A DNA stretch of 64,000 nt, taken from Anaeromyxobacter paludicola. Its GTDB lineage: Bacteria > Myxococcota > Myxococcia > Myxococcales > Anaeromyxobacteraceae. The position numbers and the translations under genes were made by a program. Shown here piece by piece: positions 45,474-56,690 of the stretch. The number at the start of each line of letters is the position of its first letter. The stretch's first letter is position 1. The notes under the pieces were generated by a model. The model saw only the letters and a program-made list of their open reading frames with translations. It did not search any database and had not been told where the DNA came from. The DNA lies in NCBI RefSeq assembly GCF_023169965.1, contig NZ_AP025592.1:4092001-4156000 (forward strand). The letters are read 5' to 3'.

Positions 45474-48308
45474 ATGCAACCGGTACCAGAATCGGCGACC
45501 GCGCCGAGCGCGGCCAACCTCGCGTTCGTCGAGGAGCTCTACTACGACTACCTGCGCGATCCGTCCACCGTGCCGGAGACGTGGCGCCGCTACTTCGACG
45601 CGCTGCCCCGCCCGGAAGGCGACGTCGCGCCCCCGCCCGAGCCCGCCTGGCGCCGGAACGGCTTCACCGCCGCGCTGCCCGGCGAGCTGGCCGCGAAGGA
45701 GCCGCCGGCCGGGCCGGGCGCCTCCTCGGAGGAGGCCTTCCAGTTCCGCGTGGACAAGCTCGTGGAGACCTACCGGGACTACGGCCACCTGCGCGCCCGG
45801 CTCGACCCGCTCGGGCTGGCGCGCCGCGAGCACCAGGGGTTCGGCCTCGAGTCCTTCGGCCTGCGCGAGGAGGACCTCGCCCGCCCGGTGGCCGTGGGAG
45901 ACCCGCAGGCGGCCGGCGCCACCACGCTCGGCGCGCTGCGCGACCGGCTGGAGGAGACCTACTGCCGCACGCTCGGCGTGGAGCTCGCCCACCTGCACGA
46001 CCAGGAGCTGCGCGGCTGGCTGCAGGACCGGATGGAGCGGACCCGCAACCACATCACCCTCGCGCCCGAGGTGCAGCTCCGGCTCTACCAGAAGGTCATG
46101 GAGGCGGAGCTGCTCGAGCAGTTCCTCGGGACCCGCTTCCTCGGCGCCAAGCGCTTCTCGGTGGAGGGGGGCGAGTCCACGGTGGCGCTCCTCGAGCTCG
46201 CCATCGACCGGGCCGTCGGCCACGGCGTGCGCGACGTGACCATCGGCATGGCGCACCGCGGCCGGCTCAACGTGCTCGCCAACGTCTGCGGCAAGCCGCT
46301 CCGCCAGATCTTCGCCGAGTTCCGCGACCGGGCCGTCATCGGCGGGAACGGCGGGGACGTGAAGTACCACCTCGGCTTCACCGGCGAGCGCGAGACGCCC
46401 GACGGGAAGGTGCTGGTGACGCTGGCCTTCAACCCGAGCCACCTCGAGTGGGTGAACACGGTCGTGCAGGGGCGCGTCCGGGCCAAGCAGGACCGCCGGG
46501 GCGACGTGGAGCGCAAGGAGGTGCTGCCGCTGCTCGTGCACGGCGACGCCGCCTTCGCCGGGCAGGGCATCGTGGCGGAGGCGCTCAACCTCGCCGCCCT
46601 CGACGGCTACACGGTCGGCGGCACCGTCCACGTGGTGGTGAACAACCAGGTCGGCTTCACCACCTCTCCCGCCGACGCCCGCTCCACCACCTACGCCACC
46701 GACGTGGCGCGCATGCTCCAGATCCCGGTCTTCCACGTGAACGGCGAGGACATGGAGGCGGTGGCGCAGGCGGTGCTGCTGGCGGTGGACTTCCGCCAGC
46801 GGTTCCACCGCGACGCCGTGATCGACCTCTGGTGCTACCGGCGCCACGGCCACAACGAGGGGGACGAGCCCTCGTTCACGCAGCCGGTCATGTACCGCGC
46901 CATCGCCGGGCGCGAGACCTTCCCGAAGCTCGAGGCCGCCCGGCTGGTCCGGGAGCGGGTCGCGACGGCGCCGGAGCTCGACGGGCTGGCGCAGGGCTAC
47001 CGGGCCCGGCTCGAGGAGGCCTTCCACGCCTCGGCCGCCATCGCCGCCAGCCCCTCCGCGCCGGTGCTCGAGGTGGGCGAGCGCCGCTACCGCGGCGGCG
47101 CCATCGACGGCGCGCCGCCCATCGCCACCGCCGTCTCGCCGGAGGTGATCGCGGAGGTCTCGCGCGCGCTGGTGACCCCGCCCCCCGGCTTCAACGTCCA
47201 CCCCAAGGTGGCGAAGCTGCTGGAGGGGCGCGCCCAGATGGCCGCCGGCCACCGCCCGCTCGACTGGGGCATGGCCGAGGCGCTCGCGTACGGCACGCTC
47301 GCCTGGGAGGGGACGCGGGTGCGGCTCTCCGGCCAGGACAGCCGGCGCGGCACCTTCAGCCACCGGCACGGCGTGCTCTACGACACGCAGTCGAACCGGC
47401 CGTACACGCCGCTCGCCCACCTGCGGCCCGGGCAGGGGGTGGTCGAGCTGCGCGACAGCCCGCTCTCCGAGGCCGCCGTGCTCGCCTTCGATTACGGGTA
47501 CAGCCTCGACATGCCCGACGGGCTCGTGATCTGGGAGGCGCAGTTCGGCGACTTCGTGAACGCCGCCCAGGTGGTGATCGACCAGTTCCTGTCCTCGTCC
47601 GAGGCCAAGTGGAACAAGCTCTCCGGGCTCACCCTGCTCCTGCCGCACGGCATGGAGGGGCAGGGCCCGGAGCACAGCTCGGCCCGGCTCGAGCGCTTCC
47701 TGGCGCTCTCGGTGGACGACAACTGGCAGGTCGTGAACCTCACCACGCCGGCGCAGATCTTCCACGCGCTGCGACGGCAGGTGCTCGCCCCCTGGCGCAA
47801 GCCGCTCGTCGTGATGTCGCCGAAGAGCCTGCTGCGGCACCCGCAGGCGGTGTCGCCGGTGGAGGCGCTCTCGAAGGGCGGCTTCCAGCCGGTCCTCGGC
47901 GACGCCGGGGTGGAGGACGCCGCGGCGGTGACCCGGGTCCTCCTCTGCACCGGCAAGCTCTACTACGAGCTCCTCGCCGCGCGGGAGGCGCAGCGGGCGC
48001 GCCACGTGGCGCTGGTCCGGGTCGAGCAGCTCTACCCGCTCGACCGCGACGCCGTGCTCTCCGAGCTGGCGCGCTACCCCGACGGGCTCGAGGTGGTCTG
48101 GGTCCAGGAGGAGCCGCGCAACATGGGGGCCTGGGACTACGTGGACCTGCACCTCGGGCCGTTCCTGCGCGGGTTCTGCGAGTTCAGCTGCGTGTCGCGC
48201 CCCCCGAGCGCCGCGCCCGCCGCCGGGTCGGCCACCCGCCACAAGCTCGAGCAGCAGGCCCTGGTGGCGCAGGCCATCGGCGTGGCCGCGCGCGTCGAGG
48301 TCGCCTAG
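45474..48308 (+). CDS. sucA: 2-oxoglutarate dehydrogenase E1 component
   Basis: The 944-residue thiamine-diphosphate enzyme decarboxylates 2-oxoglutarate in the TCA cycle and hands the succinyl group to E2. AGGAGG lies before ATG 45474, and TTAAAAT at 45458-45464 could be part of a -10 element. Landmarks: an N-terminal FVEELYYDYLRDPSTVPETW, GMAHRGRLNVLANVCG, GDVKYHLG, NPSHLEWVNTVVQGRVRAKQ, VNNQVGFTT, and RRHGHNEGDEPSFTQP. It is followed by sucB 21 bases on, forming the complex with E3 encoded elsewhere. Confidence 0.97.
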   Translation: MQPVPESATAPSAANLAFVEELYYDYLRDPSTVPETWRRYFDALPRPEGDVAPPPEPAWRRNGFTAALPGELAAKEPPAGPGASSEEAFQFRVDKLVETYRDYGHLRARLDPLGLARREHQGFGLESFGLREEDLARPVAVGDPQAAGATTLGALRDRLEETYCRTLGVELAHLHDQELRGWLQDRMERTRNHITLAPEVQLRLYQKVMEAELLEQFLGTRFLGAKRFSVEGGESTVALLELAIDRAVGHGVRDVTIGMAHRGRLNVLANVCGKPLRQIFAEFRDRAVIGGNGGDVKYHLGFTGERETPDGKVLVTLAFNPSHLEWVNTVVQGRVRAKQDRRGDVERKEVLPLLVHGDAAFAGQGIVAEALNLAALDGYTVGGTVHVVVNNQVGFTTSPADARSTTYATDVARMLQIPVFHVNGEDMEAVAQAVLLAVDFRQRFHRDAVIDLWCYRRHGHNEGDEPSFTQPVMYRAIAGRETFPKLEAARLVRERVATAPELDGLAQGYRARLEEAFHASAAIAASPSAPVLEVGERRYRGGAIDGAPPIATAVSPEVIAEVSRALVTPPPGFNVHPKVAKLLEGRAQMAAGHRPLDWGMAEALAYGTLAWEGTRVRLSGQDSRRGTFSHRHGVLYDTQSNRPYTPLAHLRPGQGVVELRDSPLSEAAVLAFDYGYSLDMPDGLVIWEAQFGDFVNAAQVVIDQFLSSSEAKWNKLSGLTLLLPHGMEGQGPEHSSARLERFLALSVDDNWQVVNLTTPAQIFHALRRQVLAPWRKPLVVMSPKSLLRHPQAVSPVEALSKGGFQPVLGDAGVEDAAAVTRVLLCTGKLYYELLAAREAQRARHVALVRVEQLYPLDRDAVLSELARYPDGLEVVWVQEEPRNMGAWDYVDLHLGPFLRGFCEFSCVSRPPSAAPAAGSATRHKLEQQALVAQAIGVAARVEVA

Positions 48309-48329
48309 CCCCGTTCCGGGAGGGAGCAC

Positions 48330-49571
48330 ATGTCGGTCGAGTTGAGGGTTCCGAGCATCGGAGAGTCCATCACGCAGGCCACGCTGGGCGCCTGGCTCAA
48401 GCAGGAGGGGGAGCCGGTGCGGGCGGACGAGCCGGTGGTGGAGGTGGAGAGCGAGAAGGCCACGGTGGCGCTGCCGGCGCCGGTCTCCGGCGTGCTCTCG
48501 CGGGTCCTGAAGGGACCGGGCGACACGGTCGCCGTGGGCGAGGTGATCGGTTACCTGGAGGAGGGCGCCGCCGCGACCGCCGCCTCCGGCCCGGGCGCGA
48601 ACCCGGCGGTGAACGCCGCGCCGCGGGCCGCCCCCGCGAGCCCGGCCCCGGCCGCGCCGATCGCCGCCGCCCCGGCCCCGGCGCCCACCGCGGCTCCGAG
48701 GGCGGCCCCGCCGCCTCCCCCCGGCCGCGGGCCGCGCCTCCCGCCCTCGGCGCGCCGGCTCCTCGCCGAGAACGGCCTCTCCGCCGACGCGCTCGCGGGG
48801 CGCGCGCTGCGCAAGGACGACGTGCAGCGGGCGCTCGAGGCCCCCGCGCCGGCGGCGCCGGTGGTGGCCGGCGAGCGCGAGCGGGTGGTGGCGATGACGC
48901 CGCTCCGCCGCACGGTGGCGCGGCGGCTCGTCGAGGCGCAGCGCACCGCCGCCATCCTCACCACCTTCAACGAGGTGGACATGACGCGGGTGCTGGCGCT
49001 GCGCGAGCGGCACCAGGCCGCCTTCACCGAGCGGCACGGGGTGAAGCTCGGGTTCATGTCCTTCTTCGTGAAGGCGGCGGTCGAGGCGCTCAAGGCCATC
49101 CCGGCCGTGAACGCCGAGGTGCGCGGCGAGAGCATCGTCTACAAGGAGCACTACGACGTCGGCGTGGCGGTCGGCGGGGGCAAGGGGCTCGTGGTCCCGG
49201 TGGTGCGCGACGCCGACCGGCTCTCCTTCGCCGAGGTGGAGCTCGCCATCGCGCAGCTCGCGAAGAAGGCCCGCGAGAACCGGATCACGCTCGACGAGCT
49301 CTCGGGCGGCACCTTCACCATCTCGAACGGCGGCATCTACGGCTCGCTGCTCTCCACCCCCATCCTCAACCCGCCGCAGTCCGGGATCCTGGGGCTGCAC
49401 AAGATCGAGCAGCGGGCGGTGGTGCGCGACGGGCAGGTGGTGGCGCGCCCGATGATGTTCGTGGCGCTCTCCTACGACCACCGGCTGGTGGACGGGCGGG
49501 AGGCGGTCACCTTCCTCGTCCGGGTGAAGGAGTGCATCGAGGATCCGGAGCGGCTCCTGCTCGAGGTCTGA
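48330..49571 (+). CDS. sucB: Dihydrolipoamide succinyltransferase, E2 component
   Basis: A 413-residue E2. The lipoyl domain has the swinging-arm Lys in [15 protein letters not shown] (residue about 43). An Ala/Pro hinge of about 60 residues links to the E3/E1-binding peripheral domain ([20 protein letters not shown]). The catalytic acyltransferase domain ends with [19 protein letters not shown], carrying the catalytic His and Asp. GGGAGGGAG precedes the ATG. It is in operon with sucA; no lpd follows, so E3 must be elsewhere in the genome. Confidence 0.97.
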
Positions 49572-49602
49572 CGGGCCGGCGGAGCGGCAGGCGGGAGGCC
49601 AC

Positions 49603-52074
49603 ATGGTCGAGCTCTTCCGGCGCCTCTTCCTCTCCGAGGAGTACATGCCCCACGGCCACTGCTACCTGTGGCAGCCGGGGCTGGTGTCCCTGCACGTCGT
49701 CTCCGACGCGCTCATCGGGACCGCCTACCTCGCCATCTCGGTCATCCTGTACCAGCTGGTGCGCCACATCCGGCTGCCGTTCAGCCCGATGATCCTGGCC
49801 TTCGGCGTGTTCATCGGGGCCTGCGGCCTCACCCACTACATGGAGGTGCTGACGCTCTGGTTCCCGGACTACTGGCTCTCCGGCGGCGTGAAGGCGGTCA
49901 CGGCGGTGGCCTCGGTGGCCACCGGCGTCTACCTGTTCCGGGTCCGCCCGACCATCCTCTCCGTCACCCGCGGCGCGCAGCTCGCCGAGGAGCGCCGGGT
50001 GCGGCTCGAGAGCACCCACCGCGAGCTGGAGCGGCTCTACGAGCGGGTGAAGGACCTCGACGACGCCAAGACCCGCTTCTTCGCCAACGTGAGCCACGAG
50101 CTGCGCACGCCGCTCGCCCTGGTGCTCGGGCCGGTGGAGAAGCTCCTCGCCGGGCCGCTGGAGGAGCGGGAGCGGCGGGAGCTCGAGGTGGTGCGGCGCA
50201 ACGGCCGGCTCCTGCTCCGGCACGTGAACGACATGCTCGACCTGGCGCGGCTCGACGAGGGGCGGCTCACCCTCGACTACGCGCGGGTGGACCTCGCCGA
50301 GCGGCTCCGCGGGCTCGCCTCCGCGTTCGAGGGCGTCGCGCGCGACCGGGGCGTCCGGCTCGAGGTGGAGGCGGGGGCGCCGGTGCCGGTGGAGGCCGAC
50401 GCGCCCAAGCTCGACCGGGTGGCGCTCAACCTGCTCGGGAACGCCTTCAAGTTCGCGCCGCCCGCGAGCGCGGTGCGCTGCGCGGTCCGCGCGGAGGGCG
50501 ACCGCGCGGTGCTGGAGGTGGAGGACCAGGGGCCGGGCGTGCCGCCGGAGCTGCGCGAGGCCATCTTCGAGCGGTTCCGGCAGGGCCGGGGCGCGCCGGA
50601 GGGCGCCGGGCTCGGGCTCGCCATCTCGCGCGAGCTGGTCGTGCTGCACGGCGGGACCATCGGCGTGGGGGACGGGGCGCGCGGCGGCGCGCGCTTCACC
50701 GTCGCCGTCCCCCTCCGCGCGCCGGCCGGCGCCCCGGTCGCGGCGGCGCCGCCGCCGCTCGGGCTCGAGGCGGCCCGCGCCACGGCCGACCTCCCGCCCG
50801 GCGCGGCCCGGGAGCTCCCCGCCCTGCCGGTGGACCCGAGCGCCCCGCTCGTGCTGCTCGTGGAGGACAACGCCGAGATGGGCCGGTTCGCCGCCGCCGC
50901 GCTCGCGGCCGAGTTCCGGGTGGCGACCGCGTCGGAGGGGGCGGAGGGGCTCCGCAAGGCCGAGGCGCTCGAGCCCGACCTCGTGGTGACCGACCTCATG
51001 ATGCCCGGGCTGCCGGGCGACGCGCTGGTCTCGGCCCTCCGCCGGCTGCCCGCCCTCGGGCGCACGCCGGTGATGGTGCTCACCGCCCGCGCCGACGAGC
51101 GGCAGCGGCTGGCGCTGCTCCGGGACGGGGCCCAGGACTACCTCGTGAAGCCGTTCCACCCGGAGGAGCTGCTGGCCCGGGCCCGGAACCTCGTCGCCAT
51201 GAAGCGCTCGAGCGACGTGCTGCGGGCGGAGCTGGCGCAGCGGAGCGGCGATCTCGAGGCGCTCGCCCGCGAGGTGGCCCGGCGCAAGCGCGAGCTGGAG
51301 GTGGCGCTCGAGACCGCGCAGGTGGCCCGCGAGCAGGCCGAGCGCGCCAGCCAGGTGAAGAGCGTGTTCCTCGGCATGGTCTCGCACGAGCTGCGCACGC
51401 CCATCACCTCCATGCTCCTCACGCTCCAGAGCCTGCAGCGCCAGGGCGCCGCGCCCCCCGAGGCGAGGGCCCGGGCCATGCAGCGGATCGAGCAGGCGGC
51501 GCGGCGGCTCCTCGAGCTCATCGAGTCGCTCCTCGAGTACACCCGCGTCGAGAGCGGCCGGCTCGTGGTGCGGCCGGAGCGGGTGGACCTGGCGCGGCTC
51601 GCCCGCGAGGTGGCCGACGAGCTCCTGCCGCAGGCCCAGGCCAGGCTGCTCAAGCTGGAGGTGGAGGCCGCGCCCCTGCCGCCGCTCGAGGCCGACCCGC
51701 GGCTCCTGCGGCTCGTGCTCATCAACCTCGTGGTGAACGCCATCAAGTACACCGAGCGGGGCGGCGTCCGGATCACCGCCGGCGAGGACGGGGACCGGCA
51801 GTGGGTCGCGGTGGCCGACACCGGGCCGGGCATCCCGCCGGAGGCGCGGGACCGGATCTTCGAGCCCTTCGAGCAGGTCGGGGCGCTCGAGAACAAGCAC
51901 CAGCCCGGGGTCGGCATCGGGCTCTCGCTCGTGCGCGGGATCGCGGCCGCCATCGGCGGCCGGGTGGAGCTGGTGGAGAGCGGTCCCGCGGGGACGGTCT
52001 TCCGCGTCGCGGTCCCGCTCCGGCCCGCGCTCAAGGAGCCGGAGCCGGCCCCGGGGGCTCCGGCGCCGCGCTGA
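49603..52074 (+). CDS. Hybrid histidine kinase with ETR1-like ethylene-binding membrane domain
   Basis: An 823-residue kinase. Residues about 27-115 form three membrane helices like plant ETR1: SDALIGTAYLAI (Asp35, Tyr42), FGVFIGACGLTHYMEV (Ile71, Cys74, His78) and VKAVTAVASVATG (Lys97). In ETR1 and cyanobacterial Etr1 the Cys and His ligate the copper that binds ethylene. Then HisKA (His165 in SHELRTPLALV) with HATPase, a receiver (Asp464 in VVTDLMMPG), a coiled coil, and a second HisKA (His595) with HATPase. ETR1 Pro36 is Ser here. It lies 31 bases after sucB. Confidence 0.85.
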   Translation: MVELFRRLFLSEEYMPHGHCYLWQPGLVSLHVVSDALIGTAYLAISVILYQLVRHIRLPFSPMILAFGVFIGACGLTHYMEVLTLWFPDYWLSGGVKAVTAVASVATGVYLFRVRPTILSVTRGAQLAEERRVRLESTHRELERLYERVKDLDDAKTRFFANVSHELRTPLALVLGPVEKLLAGPLEERERRELEVVRRNGRLLLRHVNDMLDLARLDEGRLTLDYARVDLAERLRGLASAFEGVARDRGVRLEVEAGAPVPVEADAPKLDRVALNLLGNAFKFAPPASAVRCAVRAEGDRAVLEVEDQGPGVPPELREAIFERFRQGRGAPEGAGLGLAISRELVVLHGGTIGVGDGARGGARFTVAVPLRAPAGAPVAAAPPPLGLEAARATADLPPGAARELPALPVDPSAPLVLLVEDNAEMGRFAAAALAAEFRVATASEGAEGLRKAEALEPDLVVTDLMMPGLPGDALVSALRRLPALGRTPVMVLTARADERQRLALLRDGAQDYLVKPFHPEELLARARNLVAMKRSSDVLRAELAQRSGDLEALAREVARRKRELEVALETAQVAREQAERASQVKSVFLGMVSHELRTPITSMLLTLQSLQRQGAAPPEARARAMQRIEQAARRLLELIESLLEYTRVESGRLVVRPERVDLARLAREVADELLPQAQARLLKLEVEAAPLPPLEADPRLLRLVLINLVVNAIKYTERGGVRITAGEDGDRQWVAVADTGPGIPPEARDRIFEPFEQVGALENKHQPGVGIGLSLVRGIAAAIGGRVELVESGPAGTVFRVAVPLRPALKEPEPAPGAPAPR

Positions 52075-52798
52075 CGCGCCCCTCGAGCAGCCCCCGCAGC
52101 GAGAGCGCGTCGGCCACCGCGTGGCCGTGCAGGTCGTTGTTGAAGAACACCCAGGCGTCGCCGCCGCCGCGGGCGTGCCGCGAGAGGTCGCGGGCCACCG
52201 GCTGCAGCGCCTCCGGCCCGTAGCGCCCGTCGTAGTGGCCGGTGGTGCCGTGGAAGCGGAGGTAGCGGAAGGGGCCGGTGAGCCGCGGCGGGTGGGTGTC
52301 CACGAGGTCGTGCTCGCAGAAGGCGGCGCCGCGCCGGTCGAGCACGTCGCAGACGTCGCGGCGGTACCAGCGGTCGGAGCGGAACTCGACGGCGCTCGCG
52401 AGCCCCTCCGGCACCGCCGCCAGGAAGGCGTCGAGCCGCCCGGGGTCGGGCGCGAGCCTTGGCGGGAGCTGCCACAGGATGGGACCGAGCTTGCCGCCGA
52501 GCCGGCGGACCGGGTCGAGGAACCGGGCCAGGCCCGGCTCCGGATCGAGGAGCTGCTTCATGTGCGTGAGGTACCGGCTCCCCTTCACCGCGAAGCGGAA
52601 GTCGCCGGGGACCTGCGCGCGCCAGCGCTCCACCGCGCCGGGCAGGGGCAGCCTGTAGAACGTGGCGTTGAGCTCCAGGCAGTCGAAGGAGCGGGCGTAC
52701 CGGGCGAGCCAGAGCCGCTGCGCCAGCCCCTCCGGGTAGAGGACCCCGCGCCAGTGCCGGTACTGGTAGCCGCTCGTGCCGACGCGGATGGCTCCCAT
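52031..52798 (-). CDS. DUF72 (YecE-like) family protein
   Basis: A 255-residue TIM-barrel-like protein, family DUF72. Conserved blocks: IRVGTSGYQYRHWRGVLYPE, FDCLELNATFYRLP, FRFAVKGSRYLTHMKQL, GPILWQLPP, AVEFRSDRWYRRDV, and AWVFFNNDLHGHAVADAL. No enzymatic activity is established for the family. It converges with the hybrid kinase and overlaps its 3' end by 44 bases. The last 25 residues are Pro/Ala-rich, translated over the overlap. Confidence 0.92.
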   Translation of the reverse strand: MGAIRVGTSGYQYRHWRGVLYPEGLAQRLWLARYARSFDCLELNATFYRLPLPGAVERWRAQVPGDFRFAVKGSRYLTHMKQLLDPEPGLARFLDPVRRLGGKLGPILWQLPPRLAPDPGRLDAFLAAVPEGLASAVEFRSDRWYRRDVCDVLDRRGAAFCEHDLVDTHPPRLTGPFRYLRFHGTTGHYDGRYGPEALQPVARDLSRHARGGGDAWVFFNNDLHGHAVADALSLRGLLEGRVSAAPEPPGPAPAP

Positions 52799-52874
52799 GG
52801 CCCTAACCTAGGCGCGGGGCGCCGCCGGCGCGGCACGGGACAGGGGACGCGCCTGCGACGGGCGTCGCCAGCGC

Positions 52875-55487
52875 TCAGCGGCCCGGCGCCCCTCGCGGCG
52901 GCCGCGGCGCGGGCGGCGACGCGGTGAGCGGGTCCTCCGGCCAGGCGTGGCGCGGGTACCGGCGCGAGAGCTCGCGCCGGATCGCCGGGTAGTGCCGCTC
53001 CCAGAACCCGGCGAGGTCGCTCGTGACCTGCACGGCGCGGTGGTTCGGCGCGAGCAGGTGGAGCGTGAGCGGCACCCGTCCCCCGGCGAGCGCCGGGCCG
53101 CGGGCGAGGCCGAAGAAGTCCTGCAGCCGGCTCTCCACCCAGGGCGGCTTGCCGGCCGCCTCGTACCGCACCTCGAGGGCGCGGCCGGAGGGCAGCCGGA
53201 TCCGCTCCGGCGCGAGCTCCTGGAGCGCCGCCCGGGCCCGCCCGGGCAGGGCGGCGAGGACCGCCTCCTCGAGCCCGGCCTCGCGCAGCTCGGCGAACGA
53301 GGTGCGCCCCTCGCAGAGCCCGGCGAGCGCCGCCGCGAGGTCGGCCTCCGACGGCGCGGCGAGCCCCGCCGCGGGCGCGTGGCGGGCCGCGAAGTCGAGC
53401 CGGGCGAGGAGCCGGTCGAGCGCGCCCTCGGCGGCGAAGGCGCGCGGGCCCCGCTCCTGCGCGGCGCGCGCGAGCACCGCCGCGGCGCGGGCCGGATCCG
53501 GGCGGGCGAGCCGCTTCTCCTCGAGCACCAGGTCCCGGTAGAGGAGCCGCTCGCGGGCCTCGACCCGCTCGCCCGCGGCGTTCCAGGCCACCTCCTCGTC
53601 GTAGCGCAGGTCCCCGGCGAAGAGGTCGAGGAGCAGCTCCTCCGAGGCCGCGCTCGCGAGCCGCACCACCGGGCCGCCGCGCGCGCCCGGCGCGGGCCGC
53701 GCGCCACGCCGCTCGCCCGCGTCCACCGCCACGAGGAGCGGCGCCTCGCGGACCACGCTCGCCTCGTCGAGCCGGGCGCTGCCGCCGCCCACCAGCACCA
53801 CCTCGTCGGAGCCGGGCGCGCGCCGCCGGCCGACCCGGTCCGGGTAGGCGGCGAGCGTGGCCGCCAGCAGCGCCCCCTCGTCGTCGCCGCGGGTCCGGAC
53901 GAGCCGGCAGAGCTGGCGGAAGCTGCGGCCCACCGACGCCGCGGCCCCCGGGGAGAGCCCCAGCCGCCGGCAGCGCTCGGGGGAGGGGCCGCCGCCGTCG
54001 GACGCCTGGTGGAAGAGGTGCGCCAGCTCGAGCAGGTCGGAGGGGCCGGTGGGGGTGTCGAGCCTGCCCCCCGCACCGAAGGGGCTCCGCTCGCGCAGGT
54101 CGCGCTCGCCGAGGATGGCGGCGAGGAGCGCGCCCTCCTGGCCGGCGCCGCGCGCGTCGGCCTCGAGGACCAGCCGCGCCAGGCGCGGGTGGAGCGGGAA
54201 CCGGAGCATCCGCCGGCCGGGCTCGGTGATCCGGCCCTCGGCGTCGAGCGCCCCGAGCTGGCGGAGGAGGCCCACGGCCGCCTCGAGCGCGGCGGGCGGG
54301 GGCGGCTCGAACCAGGCGAACGCGCCCTCGCCGCCGGCCTCGGGCCCCGCCCCGAGCTCGCGCGCCGCGAGGCCGAAGGAGGCGAGCGAGAGCACCGCCT
54401 CCGAGAGGTCCTCGCGGGCGATCTCCGGGAGGTCGAACTCGGGGCGGCCGTCGTGGTCGTGCCGGGTGTAGAGCCGCACGGCGCGCCCGGGGCCGGTGCG
54501 GCCGGCGCGCCCGGCCCGCTGCGCCGCCGAGGCGCGGCTCACCTTCTTCACCTCGAGCGTGGGGAGGCCCGACCAGGGCGAGTGCGAGGCGACGCGGGCG
54601 AGGCCGGAGTCGATCACCGCGGTGACGCCGGGGATGGTGACCGAGGTCTCGGCCACGTTGGTGGAGAGGATCACCTTGCGCCGCGGGCCCGGGCGCACGG
54701 CGCGGTCCTGCTCCTCCGGGGCGAGGTCGCCGTGGAGCGGCACGAGGTCGAGGCCGGCCGACTGCGCGAGCGGGGCGAGCGCCTCCCGGGCGCGCCGGAT
54801 CTCGGCGGCGCCGGGGAGGAAGACGAGCACGTCGCCGGCCGGCGCGGCGGAGACCGCCTTGCGCACCGCCGAGGCGACGAGCTGCTCGAGCCGGACGTCG
54901 GGCCGGGCGGCCTCGGCGGGGGAGAGGTACTCCACCTCCACCGGGAACATCCGCCCCTCGGAGCGGAGGGAGGGCGCGCCGAGGAAGCGCGCCACCGGGG
55001 CGGCGTCGAGCGTGGCCGACATGGCGACGAGCCGGAGCTCGGGGCGGGCGGTGCGCTGGAGCCGCCGCAGGAGCGCCAGCGCGAGGTCGCCGTGCAGGTG
55101 GCGCTCGTGGAACTCGTCGAGGAGGACGGCGGCCACCCCGGGCAGCCCCGGGTCGGACAGGAGGCGGCGCGTCAGCAGCCCCTCGGTCACGAAGCGGAGG
55201 CGCGTGCGCGGCCCGGCCACCTCCTCGAAGCGGACCTGGTAGCCGGCGGTCTCGCCGGGACGCTCACCCAGCTCCTCGGCGACGCGGCGGGCCGCCATGC
55301 GGGCCGCGAGCCGGCGCGGCTCGAGCACCACCACCTCGCCCGCCCCGGCGAGCCCGGCCTCGAGCAGCGCGCGGGGGACCCGGGTGGTCTTGCCGGCCCC
55401 GGGCGGCGCCTCGATGACGAGCGACGGCCCGCGGCGGAGCGCCTCGGCGATCTCCGGCAGGAGCGGGTCGATGGGGAGGGGCTGCAT
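52875..55487 (-). CDS. hrpB: ATP-dependent RNA helicase HrpB-type
   Basis: An 870-residue DEAH-box helicase starting at ATG 55487 (an alternative six codons up). Walker A is APPGAGKTTRVPRALLEAG and the DEAH-type box is LLDEFHERHLHGDLALAL; SATLDAAPVARFLG and helicase motif IV-VI regions follow, with VRLYTRHDHDGRPEFDLPEI. The HrpB C-terminal domain (VTSDLAGFWERHYPAIRREL) ends the protein. HrpB helicases are widespread but poorly characterised; they process RNA in some species. The gene stands alone. Confidence 0.94.
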   Translation of the reverse strand: MQPLPIDPLLPEIAEALRRGPSLVIEAPPGAGKTTRVPRALLEAGLAGAGEVVVLEPRRLAARMAARRVAEELGERPGETAGYQVRFEEVAGPRTRLRFVTEGLLTRRLLSDPGLPGVAAVLLDEFHERHLHGDLALALLRRLQRTARPELRLVAMSATLDAAPVARFLGAPSLRSEGRMFPVEVEYLSPAEAARPDVRLEQLVASAVRKAVSAAPAGDVLVFLPGAAEIRRAREALAPLAQSAGLDLVPLHGDLAPEEQDRAVRPGPRRKVILSTNVAETSVTIPGVTAVIDSGLARVASHSPWSGLPTLEVKKVSRASAAQRAGRAGRTGPGRAVRLYTRHDHDGRPEFDLPEIAREDLSEAVLSLASFGLAARELGAGPEAGGEGAFAWFEPPPPAALEAAVGLLRQLGALDAEGRITEPGRRMLRFPLHPRLARLVLEADARGAGQEGALLAAILGERDLRERSPFGAGGRLDTPTGPSDLLELAHLFHQASDGGGPSPERCRRLGLSPGAAASVGRSFRQLCRLVRTRGDDEGALLAATLAAYPDRVGRRRAPGSDEVVLVGGGSARLDEASVVREAPLLVAVDAGERRGARPAPGARGGPVVRLASAASEELLLDLFAGDLRYDEEVAWNAAGERVEARERLLYRDLVLEEKRLARPDPARAAAVLARAAQERGPRAFAAEGALDRLLARLDFAARHAPAAGLAAPSEADLAAALAGLCEGRTSFAELREAGLEEAVLAALPGRARAALQELAPERIRLPSGRALEVRYEAAGKPPWVESRLQDFFGLARGPALAGGRVPLTLHLLAPNHRAVQVTSDLAGFWERHYPAIRRELSRRYPRHAWPEDPLTASPPAPRPPRGAPGR

Positions 55488-55535: not shown

Positions 55536-56690
55536 TCATCGCTCGTCTTCGGTTGCAGCGGGGCTCGCACTGCCGGCCGTGCGTCGCGTGAACCGGTCCA
55601 TCCACTCGTCCCCGTATGCGCCTCGAGCGGCGAGGTCGTTGTGGGCTCGGCAAAGCACCCTCAAGTTAACGGCGGTCGTTCGTCCTCCGAGCGCGCGCGG
55701 GATGACGTGGTCCAGCTCGAGGCGGCGCGTCGAGCCGCAGACGCCGCCCGAGGCGAGGGGCCACTGGCAGCGCCCTTCATCGCGCTTCCAGACCTCGCGC
55801 CTCACGTGGGCAGGGACGTAGCGGTCGCGAGCGGCAGCCTCTGCCTCCGGCTCGTCCGGCACCTCGGTGCGGCCGGTCGCAGCCCGGGGCTTTGCCACGA
55901 GCCCCTTCCGCCTGGCGCTCCGGTCGAGGAGGAGGTCGAGGCCGGCCTCGAGGATCTCCTCCGCGAAGCCGCCGGGGCATGCGTGAGAGAGGGCGTCGCG
56001 GGCGGCTTCGAGCTTCTCGAGGAACCGGCGGGAGACGGTGATGTGGAGGCGACGGAGGTCGGCGGTGAGCGGGTCCGCCGCAGCGCGCGGGGGGTGGGGA
56101 GGAGCCGGTGGAGTCGGGGTCGCCGTCGCGGTGGACGTCAAGGGTGCAGTCGAGGTCGGAACGGGAGCGATCGTCCGATCCAGTTCAACCGGTTGAACCA
56201 GAAGCTGCGTGTTCTCACCCATCCCGCTTCCGGCAGATGCGGCAATCGTTCGGGTCCCTGAACCCACCGGCACCGCCGTGACCACCTCTCGCCGCGGCGT
56301 TGCCTCGGCCGGCGAGATGGCCGCCGCTTCCGCCATCGCCTCCCGCTTGGAGCAATGGAAGAAGCGCGGCAGCACCTCGTGCCGGTTCTCGGGCGTCATC
56401 ACCTTCGCGAGCGCGACGACGCTCGTGATGCAGAGCTTGCCTTCCCGGAGCGGCTCGACCACCTCGGGAAATCGCCGCACCAGCTCGTCCGCCACCTTGC
56501 GGTAATGGGCAGCGCCCTTGGACAGTCCGAGCTCTCGGTGGAGATAGTAGAAGAGGCTCGAGTGGCCGAGCTCGAGCCAGCGCCGCTGGCGGTCGAAGTC
56601 CGCGAGGGCGAGGAGGAACTCGGCGAGGGCGCCCTGCTCCTTGCGGAGGAGCTGGGCGAGGCGGGCGGTCTCGGAGAGCGCGCTGTTCAT
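55536..56690 (-). CDS. HNH endonuclease-domain protein
   Basis: A 384-residue protein from ATG 56690. The N-terminal 170 residues are a helical domain (LSETARLAQLLRKEQGALAE, LSKGAAHYRKVADELVRRFP). A Thr/Pro-rich low-complexity linker follows. The C-terminal HNH is CQWPLASGGVCGSTRRLELD, then HVIPRALGGRT, NLRVLCRAHNDLAARG: two Cys and the H-N-H residues are present. Similar N-domain/HNH proteins are often multi-copy in Anaeromyxobacter-like genomes (general knowledge). It starts directly behind a perfect GGTGAGA/TCTCACC hairpin. Function in defence or mobility is not shown. Confidence 0.82.
   Translation of the reverse strand: MNSALSETARLAQLLRKEQGALAEFLLALADFDRQRRWLELGHSSLFYYLHRELGLSKGAAHYRKVADELVRRFPEVVEPLREGKLCITSVVALAKVMTPENRHEVLPRFFHCSKREAMAEAAAISPAEATPRREVVTAVPVGSGTRTIAASAGSGMGENTQLLVQPVELDRTIAPVPTSTAPLTSTATATPTPPAPPHPPRAAADPLTADLRRLHITVSRRFLEKLEAARDALSHACPGGFAEEILEAGLDLLLDRSARRKGLVAKPRAATGRTEVPDEPEAEAAARDRYVPAHVRREVWKRDEGRCQWPLASGGVCGSTRRLELDHVIPRALGGRTTAVNLRVLCRAHNDLAARGAYGDEWMDRFTRRTAGSASPAATEDER

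Follow-up and report, generated by a model that had tools for sequence, protein, structure and literature searches.

Does an ethylene-receptor-type membrane domain in a bacterial sensor kinase mean that the protein senses ethylene, and does the position of its gene reveal what it controls? Both questions are raised by a gene directly downstream of sucAB in the window, the whole 64,000-nucleotide stretch of DNA that was analyzed, for which an earlier note had proposed a hybrid kinase of the ethylene-receptor type with a link to the TCA cycle. Bacteria with such receptors are already known, as represented by SynEtr1, AzoEtr1 and the Pfam family PF25487, and the presence of a PF25487 domain is often taken to indicate that a genome encodes an ethylene receptor. 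Many proteobacteria and cyanobacteria carry ethylene-binding-domain kinases with varied outputs (reviewed in PMC7700396).

The open reading frame at positions 49603–52074 of the plus strand encodes a hybrid sensor kinase of 823 amino acids and is a real gene: it has an ATG start and a GGGAGG ribosome-binding-like site, the upstream sequence ggcgggaggccacATG was judged good in this respect, and full-length relatives exist. It is the only ETR1_N gene in the host genome. The ETR1_N profile PF25487 matches residues 27–120 (E 1e-28 with the whole protein, 3e-30 with the N-terminus alone), scoring 99.8 bits against a curated cut-off of 27 and covering profile positions 2–96 of 97. The homology suggested at first reading is thus borne out, and the sensor domain is, as judged from these matches, genuinely related to that of the plant ethylene receptor. 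From Pfam and the AlphaFold2 model together, this domain extends over residues 25–120 (49675–49962, plus strand), and is followed on the same strand by a signaling helix (residues 122–154; 49966–50064), kinase module 1 (50065–50718; HisKA 155–220 with H165, HATPase 266–372), a receiver domain (50851–51183; residues 417–527 with phospho-acceptor D464, and K516), and kinase module 2 (51355–52023; HisKA about 585–652 with H595, HATPase about 698–807), the borders of the last being set by alignment with its counterpart L010, from another genome of the genus. The two kinase modules and single receiver that had been read from the sequence are recovered by Pfam as two HisKA, two HATPase_c and one Response_reg matches, all far over their cut-offs. 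The residues expected of a hybrid histidine kinase are present: phospho-acceptor histidine, N and G boxes, and the aspartate and lysine of the receiver.

Ahead of the first membrane helix lies a PHGxC motif (MPHGHCYLW, residues 15–23; window 49645–49671), which is almost invariant across the sampled bacterial ETR1_N domains, whatever residue they carry at the position of ETR1 Pro36 (proline, or serine or alanine). A dimer-linking cysteine has been proposed in the literature for cyanobacterial members of the family.

Between the membrane domain and HisKA1, which starts at residue 155, Pfam found no PAS or GAF domain. An AlphaFold2 model of the monomer, of moderate confidence (mean pLDDT 75, pTM 0.50), contains helices at residues 25–53, 60–83 and 90–154. 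The third of these is unbroken to residue 154, at the HisKA start, so the sensor appears in the model to be joined directly to kinase 1. Foldseek returned no significant match (best E 0.86), and sequence and profile searches found no solved structure of an ETR1_N domain.

Near full-length alignments, at 48–75% identity, were obtained with proteins from the same family, from Myxococcaceae-type genomes, from a Polaromonas bin and from bacterium 005FR1. Pfam confirmed the order membrane domain–kinase–receiver–kinase in six of these and other relatives, one of them from the cyanobacterium Kovacikia. Neither the window protein nor any of its 23 whole-length relatives has lost a catalytic residue among those checked in the two kinases and the receiver (His, Asn, Asp and Lys). 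Conservation along the protein is among the highest in the membrane domain and HisKA1.

For the ligand site, the earlier note had listed Asp, Tyr, Ile, Cys, His and Lys as kept. Every listed residue does align: window D35, Y42, I45, I71, C74, H78 and K97 correspond to ETR1 D25, Y32, I35, I62, C65, H69 and K91. The equivalents of the ETR1 copper ligands C65 and H69 lie in Cys74-Gly-Leu-Thr-His78 (49822–49836, plus strand). All seven named residues land on the expected letters of the ETR1 sequence used for the numbering. The list nevertheless omitted a position that is essential, so that the site is incompletely kept: Pro36 of ETR1 is Ser46 in the window protein (codon TCG, 49738–49740, plus strand). 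Alanine scanning, as cited in PMC11819568, identified seven residues that ETR1 needs for ethylene binding, and a second citing paper names I35, P36, I62, C65 and H69 among the essential ones (PMC6586836). Six of the seven are present in the window protein (D35, Y42, I45, I71, C74 and H78), the exception being P36. The substitution P36L is the tomato Never-ripe mutation, which makes plants ethylene-insensitive (PMC7285140), and the etr1a receptor of a squash mutant carries it as well (PMC8012379).

The replacement of Pro36 is not peculiar to this protein. ETR1_N domains were gathered from Myxococcota, samples of two proteobacterial classes and plasmids, and a tree was built from the aligned domains after column 36 had been removed, with 13 very divergent, duplicate or fragmentary domains left out. 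The window protein falls within a supported clade of 32 sampled domains (UFBoot 99, SH-aLRT 95), although single placements in the tree are rough since the bootstrap had not fully settled. The clade spans four phyla, being made up of Myxococcota, some Pseudomonadota, a cyanobacterium and a Deinococcus. Position 36 is serine in 24 of its 32 members, alanine in the remaining 8 and proline in none; 34 of the 35 domains placed elsewhere in the tree have Pro36, AzoEtr1 (L043) among them. All 26 sampled serine codons are of the TCN type, a single base away from the CCN of proline. Serine and alanine have been exchanged several times within the clade, with no reversion to proline. Many of the Myxococcota rows are closely related, so the 32 rows should not be counted as independent events; what is telling is the pattern that the tree suggests, a single change at the base of the clade without return to proline. 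The rest of the site is retained, with equivalents of Cys65 and His69 in 32/32 members, Asp25 in 30/32 and Lys91 in 29/32, and with Asp, Tyr, Ile, Cys and His kept in nearly all. Further shifts within the clade affect, among others, ETR1 positions 97, 99 and 102 in the third helix, and could compensate for the loss of Pro36.

Several sampled domains deserve separate mention. Three of them (L021, L022 and L108), from two genomes of one genus within the same order, carry Asn for D25, Ala for P36 and Arg for K91 in ETR1 numbering, and keep the cysteine and histidine; by its residues, this pattern would be still more remote from the ETR1 site. Plasmid pA of Kovacikia minuta encodes an ETR1_N protein with Pro36 (L111) alongside one with Ser36 and the membrane domain–kinase–receiver–kinase order (L044), offering a natural pair for comparing ligands within one cell. 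The contig CAMAXZ010000031.1 (L019), labelled as belonging to a Klebsiella pneumoniae MAG, carries an ETR1_N sensor kinase with Pro36 and a non-enterobacterial look, and is probably mis-binned.

These observations lead us to favor, with somewhat more belief than doubt, the view that the window protein is a diverged ETR1_N-family membrane sensor kinase from a clade that lost the essential Pro36, retained the copper-site residues and acquired an altered ligand pocket. The copper site itself is probably retained in the window kinase. With one of the seven ethylene-binding residues gone from its entire bacterial branch, the protein may sense something else. In the mechanism that we propose, a homodimer would hold Cu(I) at Cys74 and His78 within the membrane, as the residues there predict. 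A small ligand of conjectural identity, or copper itself or its redox state, would then alter the three-helix bundle. As the third helix runs straight into the dimerization helix of kinase 1, such a ligand-induced change would be expected to set autophosphorylation of kinase 1 at His165. Phosphate could then pass to Asp464 of the internal receiver, in the presumed direction of flow, and the state of the receiver would gate kinase 2 (His595) through a conserved helix at residues 528–584. Finally, kinase 2 would phosphorylate a response regulator encoded elsewhere; none adjoins the window kinase. In the Polaromonas and 005FR1 members a single-domain receiver gene lies directly downstream, as for AzoEtr1, which suggests a separate receiver as the final target. 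A bolder and tentative extension is that an old bacterial branch switched ligand, keeping the copper site while the pocket proline was replaced once at its base, and now may sense another copper-binding small molecule (e.g. CO, another alkene, or copper/redox state) through the kinase–receiver–kinase relay.

The strongest competitor is a functional ethylene receptor, a reading in which the bacterial domain tolerates Ser or Ala at position 36 and the true ligand is ethylene. The six retained residues, both copper ligands among them, and the strong constraint on the domain are in keeping with this, and bacterial family members such as AzoEtr1 do bind ethylene (PMC11819568). However, Pro36 is one of the residues found essential in the alanine scan, and alanine itself is what a quarter of the clade carries there; P36L, moreover, occurs in ethylene-insensitive plants. 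Among the papers examined, every experimentally tested receptor has Pro36, and no tested ethylene-binding domain carries a natural Ser36 or Ala36. With Pro36 replaced, high-affinity binding like that of ETR1 is not predicted. Ethylene binding by the window protein is possible, though unpredicted by the field's own seven-residue criterion, and we regard a true ethylene receptor as rather unlikely. A special case of the favored reading, a diverged sensor with an altered pocket, is that the protein responds to copper, or to redox or oxygen state at a membrane copper site, and not to a hydrocarbon. The invariance of the cysteine and histidine across the clade, in the face of the loss of the ethylene-pocket proline, is what this would lead one to expect, but no conserved copper or respiratory gene was seen among the neighbors checked, and we consider it improbable as a specific identification.

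Comparison with known systems places the divergent sensor in context. AzoEtr1 of Azospirillum brasilense (L043) shares with it the ETR1_N domain (about 43% identity), the N-terminal PHG-x-C, the copper-site cysteine and histidine, and a histidine kinase output. It differs in having Pro36 (by alignment), a PAS domain, a single kinase and a response regulator encoded next to it, whereas the window protein has serine, no PAS, a kinase–receiver–kinase arrangement and no adjacent regulator. Plant ETR1 shares the three-helix copper/ethylene-type domain, the six essential residues and the logic of a hybrid kinase, but the window protein lacks the GAF domain that lies between membrane domain and kinase in plant-type receptors, has serine for Pro36, and contains two kinase modules that flank the receiver. 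SynEtr1 (slr1212) of Synechocystis, likewise a bacterial ethylene-binding-domain kinase, does bind ethylene, and a cyanobacteriochrome separates its sensor from its kinase (PMC6682694). The closest counterparts, full-length orthologues or close relatives with Ser36 or Ala36 and the same domain order, are the proteins of Kovacikia minuta (L044), Polaromonas (L017), bacterium 005FR1 (L018) and Myxococcaceae-type genomes, although their genomic neighbors differ from those in the window; the searchable literature yielded no description of them. This domain order is common to most clade members, and the more distant L134 and L050 have other outputs, to judge from their sequences. No paper on myxobacterial members or on the Pro36-less clade was found in the literature searched, which did not cover key subscription papers and is no proof of novelty. 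A four-phylum clade with the copper ligands but uniformly without the pocket residue provides a natural test of non-ethylene sensing and of the role of Pro36, and is a caution against naming every PF25487 kinase an ethylene receptor.

The position of the gene was also examined. The genes sucA (45474–48308) and sucB (48330–49571), together occupying 45474–49571 of the plus strand, encode by their domains the E1 and E2 components of 2-oxoglutarate dehydrogenase, and are neighbors outside the sensor. The kinase starts 31 bases after the sucB stop at 49571 on the same strand, as the earlier note had said. Its 3′ end is overlapped by 44 nt by a convergent gene (52031–52798, minus strand), presumably of the DUF72 family. 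Promoter and terminator scans of 48200–52900 found nothing, though in a high-GC myxobacterial relative this result carries little weight as regards promoters. The arrangement recurs in one other genome of the genus (L010), with a gap of about 26 nt, a GTG start and only 75% protein identity between the two kinases. Synteny, with sucB located in other genomes through family TIGR01347, gives a different picture further afield. In Anaeromyxobacter and allied genera the convergent DUF72-like gene commonly comes next after sucA–sucB, with hrpB beyond it and the kinase absent, and four genomes of related genera have no kinase in the sucB–DUF72 gap of about 40–100 nt. Three other genomes of the family have the kinase away from sucAB, with other neighbors, and in other sampled genera it is located elsewhere or missing. 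Orthologues of the Myxococcaceae type lie beside genes for a glycosyltransferase, a PLP-dependent decarboxylase and a Na/H exchanger, and no partner gene common across the clade was seen among the neighbors checked. Linkage to sucAB is thus absent beyond close relatives in the genomes sampled, and synteny rejects a TCA link as a conserved feature. Most simply, the kinase gene took up its place after sucB, next to the DUF72-like gene, in the common ancestor of the window genus, and its position looks accidental. Co-transcription with sucB is plausible, and a functional link to sucAB is unsupported beyond that. A regulator of the TCA cycle, or a sensor tied to it through co-expression with sucAB, is accordingly a very improbable account of an adjacency confined to two genomes of one genus.

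Further downstream in the window, near hrpB, positions 55536–56690 of the minus strand encode a protein with an HNH-endonuclease-like C-terminus, a 41% identical copy of which also adjoins hrpB in another genus (L085).
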